NCBI GenBank assembly: GCA_035650475.1
Contig: DASRHP010000012.1
Span: 236,059 to 300,058, forward strand
DNA from: Candidatus Binataceae bacterium
GTDB lineage: Bacteria; Desulfobacterota; Binatia; Binatales; Binataceae
Reading direction: 5' to 3'
DNA length: 64,000 nucleotides
Position numbers and translations under genes: made by a program. Each line of letters opens with the position of its first letter. Positions within the stretch are counted from its first letter, which is position 1. Of this stretch, positions 1 to 3,533 are shown piece after piece. The notes below the pieces were generated by a model. It was given only the letters and a program-made list of their open reading frames with translations, did no database searches and was not told the origin of the DNA.

Positions 1-395
1 GCGGCGACGTGGCGCACGACTTCGTAGGTATAGGGCAGCGGCACGAGGTCGTGCAAATTGCGTCCACCGGTGCCGGTCCAGCACAGATGGTCGGAAATCC
101 AGGCCGGCGCAAACCGCCGCGCCGTATCGCGCAACGCCTCGAGGTAGGCACGGTTGAGCGGGTCGGTCGAGCCGATCGACAAACTCACGCCATGCATCAC
201 GATCGGGTAGCGCGCGCGCACGCCTTCGAGCACCTCCAGCGCGCGCCCGCCCTTGACCATGAAGTTCTCCGAGATGACCTCGAACCAGTCGATCGGCGGG
301 TGAGGCTGCGATGCGTCCGGGTCGAGCACTTGCGCATAGTGGGGCCGGCGCAGGCCGACACCGAAGCCCAGCGGTGCGAACGCGGAGCGCTTCAT
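1..395 (-). CDS. DUF692 / MNIO-family multinuclear iron oxidase, probable bufferin maturase (partial, runs off the left edge)
   Basis: The first 131 codons of a minus-strand gene are visible from the ATG at 393-395. A GGAG seven bases upstream supports this start. The fragment carries family landmarks of DUF692 (MbnB, TglH, BufB): GVGLRRPHY at residues 12-20, DWFEVISENF at 36-45, HGVSLSIG at 68-75, SDHLCW at 101-106 and HDLVPLPYT at 115-123. His68, His103 and Glu43 lie where iron ligands of the family fall. Known family members use mixed-valent iron to rewrite cysteine residues of peptide precursors. The gene starts 61 bases after a Cys-rich secreted peptide on the same strand, the normal order of bufferin operons. 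The rest of the operon (a BufC-like partner and others) would lie beyond the left edge. Confidence 0.88.
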   Translation of the reverse strand, partial: MKRSAFAPLGFGVGLRRPHYAQVLDPDASQPHPPIDWFEVISENFMVKGGRALEVLEGVRARYPIVMHGVSLSIGSTDPLNRAYLEALRDTARRFAPAWISDHLCWTGTGGRNLHDLVPLPYTYEVVRHVA

Positions 396-456
396 CGCCA
401 GACTCCGCGAGGCGGCGCGCCGCGCACAACATCGCCGCCGCGCGCCCCGCGCAAGC

Positions 457-741
457 TCACGACTTCTTCTCAGGCGGCGCGGGATGGCCGCCCTTGTCAG
501 TGCACTCCTTGACCGACGCCGTCGTTACCCATCCCTTGCCTTTGCACGAGTTTTGTCCCATGCAGGAGTTGGTCGCGCTCGCGCACGAGCTCTGCCCCTT
601 GCAGCTGTTGCCACCGATACACTTGACCTGGCTCGCGCTCGACCCGCTGCTAGACCCGTTCTCGGCGAATGTCGGATTAGCTAGGAACATCGCGCCGACC
701 GCCGCCGCCAACACCGCGCCGGTGAGTGTCTTGCCGTTCAT
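457..741 (-). CDS. Bufferin-type (BufA-like) Cys-rich periplasmic metallophore precursor
   Basis: This 94-residue peptide starts at the ATG at 739-741 behind GAGGAG. Residues 1-26 form a Sec signal peptide (Lys near the start, an Ala/Val/Leu core, cleavage after TFA). The mature part has six cysteines (41, 47, 53, 60, 66, 80) in a repeated pattern: CIGGNSCKGQ, then CMGQNSCKGKGW. This pattern is typical of BufA precursors, which keep the signal peptide as leader and have core cysteines modified by a DUF692 enzyme so that the product binds copper in the periplasm. The maturase gene follows directly. An upstream in-frame extension to about 933 exists but lacks the signal-peptide logic. The metal and the exact modification are inferred from the family. 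Confidence 0.82.
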   Translation of the reverse strand: MNGKTLTGAVLAAAVGAMFLANPTFAENGSSSGSSASQVKCIGGNSCKGQSSCASATNSCMGQNSCKGKGWVTTASVKECTDKGGHPAPPEKKS

Positions 742-860
742 CCGTGGTCTCCTCTTCTGTTCTGCCGCGGGTCCGCGTCGCTGCGGTTCCCGCCGCGCCC
801 GCTGCTTTGACCAATCCAAAGGCTCGGCGTGTGGAACCGAGGCCGGCCTCGTACGCGTTG

Positions 861-887
861 AACACCCTGAGATATGGCGAGCGTTCC
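861..887 (-). promoter_or_regulatory. Candidate ECF-type promoter of the bufferin operon
   Basis: Reading on the minus strand, GGAAC (887-883) is followed after 17 bases by GTGTT (865-861), a layout compatible with ECF promoters. It lies about 120 bases upstream of the precursor start. A second GGAAC-type motif precedes the divergent sigma gene. This rests on short motifs in a GC-rich region and is tentative. Confidence 0.3.
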
Positions 888-1044
888 TTGCCGCCTGACC
901 GGCGCGCTCCGCTCCCCCTGACAGGCAAAGCATAGGCCTGCCGATGGACCGGGTGTCAATAACACGCAGCCTCTCCCGCCTGTGTTGCGCGACAGCCTGC
1001 AGCCGCTTGCGGTCGCAGAAATCGGCGCGCGCTCGTGAGGTTGG

Positions 1045-1072
1045 GGGAACTTTTCCGCCGCATAGGCGATTT
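1045..1072 (+). promoter_or_regulatory. Candidate autoregulated ECF-type promoter upstream of the sigma factor
   Basis: GGGAACTTTT at 1045-1054 matches the usual -35 of ECF-dependent promoters. The expected -10 falls near CGATTTA at 1067-1073, about 16 bases on. Transcription would then begin shortly before the sigma-factor start at 1112. The -35 is good and the -10 is weak. Confidence 0.4.
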
Positions 1073-1111
1073 ACTCAGCGGCCGATGCTATATGTTGGTG
1101 CTCCGTTGGAT

Positions 1112-1687
1112 ATGGGGGAAAAAGGGGGCACCGGAAGAGAAAAGCGCGCGCTCTTCGAGCGCGAGGCGTTGGCTCACGTCGACGCCCTGTACTCGGCGGC
1201 GCTGCGCCTTGCGCGCAATCCCGACGACGCCCGCGACCTGTTGCAGGAGACCGTGCTGCGCGCCTACCGCTTCTTCCATCAGTACACCCCGGGCACCAAC
1301 TGCCGCGCGTGGCTGCTCACCATCCTGTACAACAACTTCCGCAACGGCTACCGCGGCGGCTCGCGCGAGATGCTCGCGGCAACCCCGGAGGACTTCGAGC
1401 GCGAGCTGGAGGGAGCCAGCATGCGCGCTGACCGAGCCGCCGACAATCCCGAGGCGCTGCTCGCCGAGCAGATCCTCGACCATGAGGTGGCGGCCGCGCT
1501 CGACGCGCTGCCCGCCGACTTTCGCACGGTCCTGATCCTGGTCGACGTCCAGGAGCTCAACTACCAGGAGGCCGCGCAGGTGCTCGGATGCCCGATCGGC
1601 ACCGTCAAGTCGCGGGTTTCGCGCGGGCGCCAGATGATGCGCAATGCGCTGGCGGCATTCGCCCGCAAGCGCGGGATCACCCGGTGA
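1112..1687 (+). CDS. ECF-family RNA polymerase sigma factor
   Basis: The predicted product is 191 residues from the ATG at 1112 (in-frame starts at 1085 and 944 only add poorly conserved residues, and 1085 lies almost on the predicted promoter). Region 2 contains NPDDARDLLQETVLRAY and the GTNCRAWLLTILYNNFRN stretch typical of sigma-E/SigH-like ECFs. Region 4 ends with the helix-turn-helix YQEAAQVLGCPIGTVKSRV. The next gene, 37 bases on, encodes a membrane anti-sigma factor. The divergent bufferin operon and shared GGAAC motifs suggest that this sigma drives it, as SigF does for the related gig operon of Caulobacter. The regulatory link is inferred. Confidence 0.92.
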   Translation: MGEKGGTGREKRALFEREALAHVDALYSAALRLARNPDDARDLLQETVLRAYRFFHQYTPGTNCRAWLLTILYNNFRNGYRGGSREMLAATPEDFERELEGASMRADRAADNPEALLAEQILDHEVAAALDALPADFRTVLILVDVQELNYQEAAQVLGCPIGTVKSRVSRGRQMMRNALAAFARKRGITR

Positions 1688-1727
1688 GCCGGATGCAGTC
1701 GGGGCCGTGTTGCGTGTATAAGGCTTG

Positions 1728-2618
1728 GTGAAAGCCGTGAACTGCGAGGAGTACATTGCTAACTGCCTCTCAGCCCACGCCGATGGCGAGCTGACGCCCG
1801 AGGAGGAGCGTGCGGTTGCCGACCATCTCGGCCACGGGGTCGACGACGGATGCGCCGCGTGCCGCACGCGCCTTGCCGAGGAGCGCCTGCTTAAGGCGCT
1901 GATCCGCCGCCACGGCGCGGCCCAAGCGCCCGAGGAGCTGCGCGCTCGGCTGAGCGCCGCGCTCGACGGTCTCGATCGCGAAGCCGGGGCGCGGCGCTCC
2001 GACGGGGGTGCGCGCGGCGGCGCAGTCGTGCGCGAGCTGCGCCGGCCGTGGGTTTGGGTGCCACTGGCCGCGGCGGCCGCGATCCTCGTCGCGCTGTTCA
2101 TCGGCAGCTTGCCCGGGGTGCGTCAAATGAGCGCCCCCGCGCTCAGCGGGGTCAGCTCGATGGTGGCGAGTGCGGCGTTTGACCAGGCGGTGGGCGCCTT
2201 CGACGGCTTCCAGGGCGGCTTTCGTCCCAACGTGCCGTCCTCTTCGCTCGCCGCGGTCGCCGCCGCCTACGGCGCAGCCGAGATGCCCGACCAGATGTGG
2301 GACCTTACACAAGCCGGCTACTCGCTCGCCGGCGGACGGCTCGATCGCCTGCCCGACGGAAGTCCAGTGACCTACACGCTGTACCGCGGTCCGAAGGGCG
2401 ACCTTCTGTGCACCCGCTACAAGGCGAACAATTTCAGCTTCCCGCCCGGCGCCGTCGCTGAACATCACGGCCATCGCTTCTACAGCTACAAGGGCTACAG
2501 TCTCTGCCTGACGATCTCGCGCGAGGGGCGCTTCATCTGCGTGCTGACGGCGAGGGAGCCGATGGAGCAATTCGAGCGGGACATTTCGATGGCGCGGGCG
2601 TTCACGCTCAGAAAGTAA
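1728..2618 (+). CDS. Transmembrane anti-sigma factor with a ZAS-like N-terminus and periplasmic domain
   Basis: The N-terminal 50 residues resemble the zinc anti-sigma fold: NCEEYIANCLSAHADGEL, then His-Leu-Gly-His and Cys-Ala-Ala-Cys, with a longer than usual gap between His and the first Cys. A single hydrophobic segment (WVWVPLAAAAAILVALFIGS, roughly residues 108-127) follows. About 165 residues then face the periplasm. This outer part contains three cysteines and an EHHGHRFY stretch, which could bind a metal. Start choice is uncertain (TTG 1725, GTG 1728, GTG 1737); AAGG at 1720 favours 1725/1728. It should hold the upstream ECF factor inactive until a periplasmic signal arrives. Confidence 0.78.
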   Translation: MKAVNCEEYIANCLSAHADGELTPEEERAVADHLGHGVDDGCAACRTRLAEERLLKALIRRHGAAQAPEELRARLSAALDGLDREAGARRSDGGARGGAVVRELRRPWVWVPLAAAAAILVALFIGSLPGVRQMSAPALSGVSSMVASAAFDQAVGAFDGFQGGFRPNVPSSSLAAVAAAYGAAEMPDQMWDLTQAGYSLAGGRLDRLPDGSPVTYTLYRGPKGDLLCTRYKANNFSFPPGAVAEHHGHRFYSYKGYSLCLTISREGRFICVLTAREPMEQFERDISMARAFTLRK

Positions 2619-2627
2619 GCGCGCGCG

Positions 2628-3533
2628 ATGGCGGGGGTGCCGAGGGCGGGCTCGCGCACCGCGCTGTTCTCGATCGCCGCGGGCCTGGCCCTGATGTTCC
2701 TGGTTGGCCCGCTGCTCAAGCTCGTCCTGGGCGCGGACCCTCACGCGCTGGCGCGCGTTCGGCGACCGCACGGTCCTCGACGCAATCGGGCTCAGCGTGA
2801 TGGCAGCGACGTGGGCAACCGTGCTGGTACGATCGTCGGCACACCGCTGGGCTTTTTGCTCGCGCGGCGGGACTTCTCGGGCAGGACGATCGTCGAGGCA
2901 CTGACCGATCTGCCGGTTGTCGCGCCCCATCGAATCGCGGGGGTCGCCCTGCTATTCGTCTTCGGCCGGCGCTTCTTCGTCGGCCGCGCCTTCGAACTGT
3001 TCGGTGTCCACTTCGGCGGTGCGGTGCTGGGGATCGTGATCGCGATGTTGTTCGTCAGCGCGCCGTTTCTGATCAACGCCGCGCGCGACGGCTTCCGCGC
3101 CGTGGACCCGCGCCTGGAAAGCGTCGCGCGCACGCTCGGACGCGGACCGTGGGCGGCGTTCTTCGGCGTGACGCTCCCGCTTGCGCGCGGGGCGCTGGTC
3201 TCAGGAGCGGTGACGATGTGGGCGCGGGCGCTTTCCGAGTTCGGCGCGATGGTGGTGCTCGCCTGCTATCCGATGACCGCGCCGGTGCTGATCTACGACC
3301 GCTTTGAGGGCTACGGGCTGAGCGCGGCGCAGCCGGTGGCGGCGGCGGTGGTAATCATCGCGCTAATCTTGTTCGCCGCGCTCCGCACCTCAACCTGCGC
3401 CAGGCCGCGGGCTGAAGAGAAACCGGACCACAGACCCAGGCTGGTGATTGCGCCACGCGGTCAAGCACGGACTGGGTGCTTTATGACGGTCGCTTCGAGT
3501 GTTAATCTCTACGGGAGTCAAGGCGCGTCTTGA
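2628..3533 (+). CDS. Tungstate/molybdate ABC transporter permease, WtpB-like, with two compensating frameshifts
   Basis: The C-terminal two thirds match WtpB/ModB permeases: TIVGTPLGFLLARRDFSG, LPVVAPHRIAGVALLFVFGR, and the EAA-type loop DPRLESVARTLGRGPWAAFF followed by TLPLARGALVSGA. Residues read in this frame between about 2749 and 2828 (VRRPHGPRRNR...) look non-native. The +1 frame there encodes WRAFGDRTVLDAIGLSVMAA, as the family requires. One extra base near 2748 and one missing base near 2828 explain this. No binding protein or ATPase gene is adjacent. The gene is either decaying or carries two sequence errors. The last 50 or so residues after ALR are unlike the family and overlap the next reading frame. 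Confidence 0.7.
   Translation: MAGVPRAGSRTALFSIAAGLALMFLVGPLLKLVLGADPHALARVRRPHGPRRNRAQRDGSDVGNRAGTIVGTPLGFLLARRDFSGRTIVEALTDLPVVAPHRIAGVALLFVFGRRFFVGRAFELFGVHFGGAVLGIVIAMLFVSAPFLINAARDGFRAVDPRLESVARTLGRGPWAAFFGVTLPLARGALVSGAVTMWARALSEFGAMVVLACYPMTAPVLIYDRFEGYGLSAAQPVAAAVVIIALILFAALRTSTCARPRAEEKPDHRPRLVIAPRGQARTGCFMTVASSVNLYGSQGAS

Follow-up and report, generated by a model that had tools for sequence, protein, structure and literature searches.

The closest described relatives of the locus analyzed here are the Buf2 bufferin clusters, which have the gene order bufABC(D) (PMC12452194). A 2025 survey found sigma factor genes in Buf1 clusters and none in Buf2 clusters, and describes the bufABC order as strictly conserved (PMC12452194). 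In Caulobacter, the extracytoplasmic function (ECF) sigma factor SigF controls buf operons, whose precursors are listed as DUF2282 (Buf1), and two periplasmic cysteines of the anti-sigma factor NrsF are needed to keep the SigF-dependent genes at basal levels (PMC3511200). The present analysis concerns the beginning of a 64,000-nucleotide stretch of DNA (the window; G000:C12:236059-300058) from a bacterium of the family Candidatus Binataceae, phylum Binatota, whose genome assembly is 3.83 Mb in size and 95% complete. Here, a Buf2-type pair of genes, bufA2 and bufB, lies divergent from the genes for an ECF sigma factor and its membrane anti-sigma factor.

The results point, with a probability of roughly two in three, to a Buf2-type bufferin system under a dedicated ECF switch that serves copper buffering in the periplasm. 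As shown in Table 1, all four genes are judged real, and the layout given by the first-pass annotation of this DNA, with bufA2 and bufB on the minus strand and the sigma and anti-sigma genes on the plus strand, is correct; the identities are given by family models and profile matches, and the start codons of the sigma gene (ATG) and the anti-sigma gene (GTG) are corrected ones. The locus resembles the Buf2 clusters (PMC12452194) in its six-Cys, Sec-exported precursor, its BufB-type MNIO enzyme, the position of bufA before bufB and the presence of a DUF2063 gene in the genome. It differs from them in the attached ECF sigma/anti-sigma pair, in a bufC that is unlinked throughout the genus, in the absence of a DoxX gene from the cluster and in the GNAT-like gene downstream.

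Table 1. Features of the locus. Positions refer to the window, except for the GNAT-like gene, which is placed on L002, the stretch holding the left flank (window position = L002 position - 12059).
Feature	Position	Strand	Basis or remark
bufB, MNIO/DUF692 bufferin maturase, N-terminal 131 of 293 amino acids in window	1..395	-	NF050167, 359.8 bits
bufA2, Buf2 bufferin precursor	457..741	-	NF050166, 75.7 bits (cut-off 60); six-Cys pattern aligned over 40 loci
Candidate ECF promoter of bufA, GGAAC-N19-GTT	861..887	-	146 nt upstream of bufA start
Predicted autoregulatory ECF promoter of sigma gene, GGGAACTTTT-N13-GATTT	1045..1072	+	18/21 loci
TGCTATRTT-like element	1086..1096	+	conserved downstream of ECF motif in most loci
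ECF sigma factor, 191 amino acids	1112..1687	+	Sigma70_r2, Sigma70_r4_2, TIGR02937 over cut-off
Membrane anti-sigma factor: zinc anti-sigma domain, one transmembrane helix, periplasmic domain	1737..2618	+	profile matches, AlphaFold2, Foldseek
GNAT-like gene, 375 amino acids	L002 10134-11261	-	of all genes downstream of bufferin operons in the family, the one kept most constantly

The precursor has 94 amino acids, with a Sec signal peptide read from the sequence (MNGKTLTGAVLAAAVGAMFLANPTFA) and a core with six conserved cysteines. These cysteines and the C-x-G-x-N-x-C-K-G repeats stand in a common register with those of 39 other precursors from the class, and the score for the curated NCBIfam BufA2 model passes its cut-off. 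Judged by its sequence, it is a canonical, ordinary six-Cys Buf2 precursor, and the view that its core forms a distinct variant was rejected on the grounds of this model match and alignment. In several other Binataceae precursors (L049, L059, L060 and L062-L065), the fourth cysteine is lost and a PGPG or AGPG stretch stands there instead. The DUF2282 (PF10048) precursor that characterizes Buf1 was absent from the source genome in a family-model search, and the locus is accordingly not assigned to Buf1. Genome searches found exactly one BufA2, one MNIO and one DUF2063 gene.

The bufB gene adjoins bufA2 and runs beyond the window (L002 11573-12454, minus strand, extending to G000:C12:235572); the whole protein exceeds the NF050167 cut-off of 310 bits and matches PF05114 with 355 bits. 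The first-pass annotation had made its reading depend on the iron ligands of the full DUF692 protein. The ligand motifs are intact, and H68, D102, H103, E148, N149, D181, N183, N184, H212, D225, H227, E254 and D256 are invariant in 33 of 33 loci. In HvfB, N175, D242 and H244 are each required for activity (PMC13419390); their counterparts should be the DINN and DTH motifs of BufB, as matched by motif and not by structure. An alignment through 3BWW suggests that Asp257, which follows the putative base Asp256, appears at the position of FonB Phe250, and this is the substitution reported for the MNIOs of Cys-Lys precursors, BufA2 among them (PMC13097082).

The linkage of the ECF pair to the bufferin genes is conserved. 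When the same gene order was sought in relatives, the orthologous sigma/anti-sigma pair was found divergent from, and at most 700 bp from, bufA2 in 21 of 41 bufA2 loci of the family (21 genomes, 10 genera), where the usual order is anti-sigma and sigma, followed divergently by bufA2, bufB, bufC and the 375-amino-acid GNAT-like gene. For comparison, 82 Buf2 loci from outside the family were read, and an ECF gene of any kind lay within 3 kb at four of them (L128, L135, L164 and L166); these genes belong to other ECF types where examined; at L166, the gene is divergent from bufA and has a short anti-sigma candidate. A Fisher test of 21/41 against 4/82 gives 6e-9, a value to be read as the strength of an association kept within the family, since the family loci are related by descent and do not count as separate events. 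Within the family, one genome (G337, L216) carries a different ECF gene and a short anti-sigma gene in the same divergent place.

A promoter-like motif, GGAAC-N17-19-[AG]TT, was first spotted by eye in 15 intergenic regions and then counted. It occurred on the sigma side in 13 and on the bufA side in 7 of these discovery regions, compared with means of 0.3 and 0.4 and maxima of 3 and 4, respectively, in 1000 Markov shuffles. In six loci fetched later, the sigma side carried it in five at the same distance of 62-63 nt, which brings the sigma side to the overall count given in Table 1. The sigma-side motif, GGGAAC-N17-GATTT, takes the extended form GGGAACyTTT-N13-GATTT, and a genome-wide search for a pattern of this kind gave one occurrence, the one before the sigma gene itself; autoregulation of the sigma factor is well supported as a prediction because of this conserved motif and its single genomic occurrence. 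The motif is followed by TGCTATGTT, and the TGCTATRTT-like element could represent an extended -10 element, belonging to a housekeeping promoter that serves the sigma gene. On the bufA side, seven of the 21 loci with a linked ECF pair carried the motif, against a shuffle expectation of about 0.55, and one of the 20 loci without such a pair did. Control of bufA by the sigma factor is thus plausible from motifs found in a minority of the loci, the window included.

The anti-sigma factor combines two parts that are known from different proteins. Its N-terminal domain matches the structures of the zinc anti-sigma factors RsiW (E 1.7e-8) and RsrA (E 2.4e-6). The window protein scores just short of the Pfam cut-off for the zf-HC2/ZAS (zinc anti-sigma) model, which matches 10 of 11 orthologues. 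The zinc site, a cysteine near the start and then H, C and C in the arrangement Cys...His-x(n)-Cys-x2-Cys, is invariant or close to it in the 11 orthologues; in the window protein, five extra residues separate H from C. An HHGH motif of the window copy was rejected as a metal-binding site, as it is absent from the positions conserved in orthologues. The periplasmic domain has no Pfam match. An AlphaFold2 model built from three sequences was poor as a whole, with a mean predicted local distance difference test score of 63.9, but reached a score near 85 for residues 142-290. Foldseek placed RseB and MucB among the best matches of this domain, with a probability of 1.00, about 3.2 Å over 104 columns and E of about 0.002; the TM-score of these matches is about 0.26 by full length, and the top match by E-value, TM1622, superposed poorly. 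A fold like that of RseB/MucB is therefore a moderate lead from the model. RseB and MucB are separate periplasmic proteins, whereas in Binataceae the zinc anti-sigma domain and the RseB/MucB-like domain would be parts of one protein. One periplasmic cysteine is invariant among the orthologues, and two more are frequent.

The likeness to Caulobacter seen in the first-pass annotation holds in part. Both systems show an autoregulated ECF sigma factor (predicted here), a membrane anti-sigma factor with periplasmic cysteines and a link to an MNIO operon. The notion of a bufferin-type MNIO locus paired with ECF sigma and anti-sigma genes is supported. However, the Caulobacter system is of Buf1 type with NrsF, an unrelated six-helix DUF1109 protein (PMC3511200), whereas the Binataceae locus is of Buf2 type with a zinc anti-sigma factor, and its anti-sigma factor, having neither DUF1109 nor six transmembrane helices, does not place it with the SigF/NrsF pairs. 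The promoters also differ, with GTAACC-N16-CGAA in Caulobacter (PMC3511200) and GGGAAC-N17-GATTT here. Preliminary work on a Caulobacter Buf2 has been mentioned (PMC12452194), and the searches returned no match to BufA2 from the C. vibrioides genome used as a control. Should a Caulobacter Buf2 be part of the SigF regulon, ECF control of a Buf2 in trans would have a precedent, and the novelty would lie in the linkage of the pair, in its type of anti-sigma factor and in its promoter.

The first-pass annotation suggested looking for BufC- and BufD-like partners to the left, and none lies there. Reading of the 12-kb left flank together with genome searches gave no BufC-like gene at the locus and placed the only DoxX gene about 157 kb away, so that partners to the left were rejected. 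The DUF2063 gene expected after bufB is thus missing from the locus, and the only DUF2063 protein of the genome (BufC, 275 amino acids) is encoded on another contig (C10; L005 5759-6586, minus strand), between genes for glutathione reductase and a glutathione S-transferase-like protein. The same transferase-like gene adjoins bufC in one of the two other genomes of the genus, each of which has one unlinked bufC. The bufC gene follows bufB in most other genera; it is also unlinked in genera g203 and g205, and in one genome, G342, bufB is the separated gene. The missing linked bufC marks a variant locus that is still Buf2, because the precursor and enzyme models, and not gene order, define the family. 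Across 41 family genomes, DUF2063 and MNIO genes coincide in presence (33 and 33), and the BufB and BufC trees agree, each showing the genus as a single clade nested within the main clade of the family and setting the g205 genomes apart. Because of this co-occurrence and agreement, BufC most likely acts in trans from its unlinked gene; a horizontal origin of the unlinked BufC was rejected, since the trees place it with the family. In two further genomes (G320, L051/L055; G121, L192/L193), the ECF locus has neither bufB nor bufC between its bufA2 and GNAT genes; both are located elsewhere with a second, weakly scoring bufA2.

These features can be joined into a mechanism, in which we infer the inducing signal, the action of the sigma factor on bufA, the chemistry and the copper buffering. 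Envelope stress or metal/thiol stress would be sensed by the membrane anti-sigma factor, with its zinc domain inside and its RseB-like, Cys-bearing domain outside, which would free the sigma factor. The sigma factor would activate its own promoter and, in some genera at least, the source genus included, the promoter of bufA-bufB(-bufC-GNAT). Before Sec export, BufB, together with BufC from the unlinked gene, would turn core cysteines of BufA2 into 5-thiooxazoles, and in its mature form the peptide would chelate excess periplasmic copper. This role replaces the metal scavenging proposed at first pass, since the function described for bufferins is to buffer copper that is in excess. The more specific statement, that Binataceae drive Buf2 synthesis by a dedicated envelope-stress switch with the zinc and RseB-like sensor in one protein and BufC in trans in several genera, is tentative, at a little below even odds. 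Binataceae, which are known from environmental genomes, provide a clear and conserved exception to the absence of sigma factors from Buf2 clusters and to the strict bufABC order. They also offer a second and unrelated route coupling ECF factors to bufferins, a specific predicted promoter, and examples of an MNIO partner that has to act although its gene is unlinked.

Several points weigh against the main reading, a copper-buffering Buf2 system under a dedicated switch. The shared descent of the 21 linked loci bears on it, as said above. In two genomes (L206, 3490-6375; L214, 1812-4507), the ECF pair and the GNAT-like gene lie divergently without any buf gene between them, and buf may for this reason not be its main target. 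The strict bufA-side motif was found in none of the six held-out loci, no ECF motif lies upstream of the unlinked bufC in three genomes (so that its joining the regulon by a motif of its own was rejected), no copper gene was found near the locus, and the Buf2 chemistry is published in preliminary form only (PMC12452194). Of the first-pass reading, the pairing itself is supported by its conservation in relatives, the sigma promoter and the candidate bufA site in the window, with the bufA motif confined to a minority of loci.

The strongest rival, though an unlikely one, is that the two units are mere neighbours: the ECF pair would regulate itself and other genes such as GNAT, and the bufferin operon would have its own constitutive or copper-responsive promoter. 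The 14 of 21 loci lacking the strict bufA-side motif, the two GNAT loci without buf and the 20 bufA2 loci without a linked pair favour it. However, the divergent linkage is kept over 10 genera with anti-sigma identity down to 33-60%, and the bufA motif is about 13-fold above shuffles in linked loci and nearly absent in unlinked ones; within the genus of the window, both of the linked loci carry it. Less probable again is that the peptide binds another metal or serves thiol/oxidative stress and not copper, to which the RsrA/RsiW-type anti-sigma factor, the glutathione reductase gene beside the unlinked bufC and the MerC-Buf2 fusions that point to mercury (PMC12452194) would be suited. Decay of the locus, with a precursor possibly unmodified now, is very improbable. 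In its favour, all three genomes of the genus lack a bufC between bufB and the GNAT gene, and the ECF locus of G121 and of G320 lacks both bufB and bufC. Against it, bufA and bufB are whole and retain every invariant residue, and a single bufC persists elsewhere in each genome of the genus, with a tree that matches that of BufB.

Buf2 is present in 87 of 148 genomes of the host's class and is confined to this class in a phylum-wide sample. The GNAT-like protein matches its Pfam model below threshold and has no meaningful relative in the PDB, and an Rfam scan of the window at gathering thresholds gave no match. In the wtpB-like permease gene that follows the anti-sigma gene (window 2628-3533, plus strand), a patch of about 25 codons at approximately 2752-2826 reads in the next frame relative to the L050 orthologue and then returns, which reflects either a pair of indels that compensate each other or an error in sequencing.
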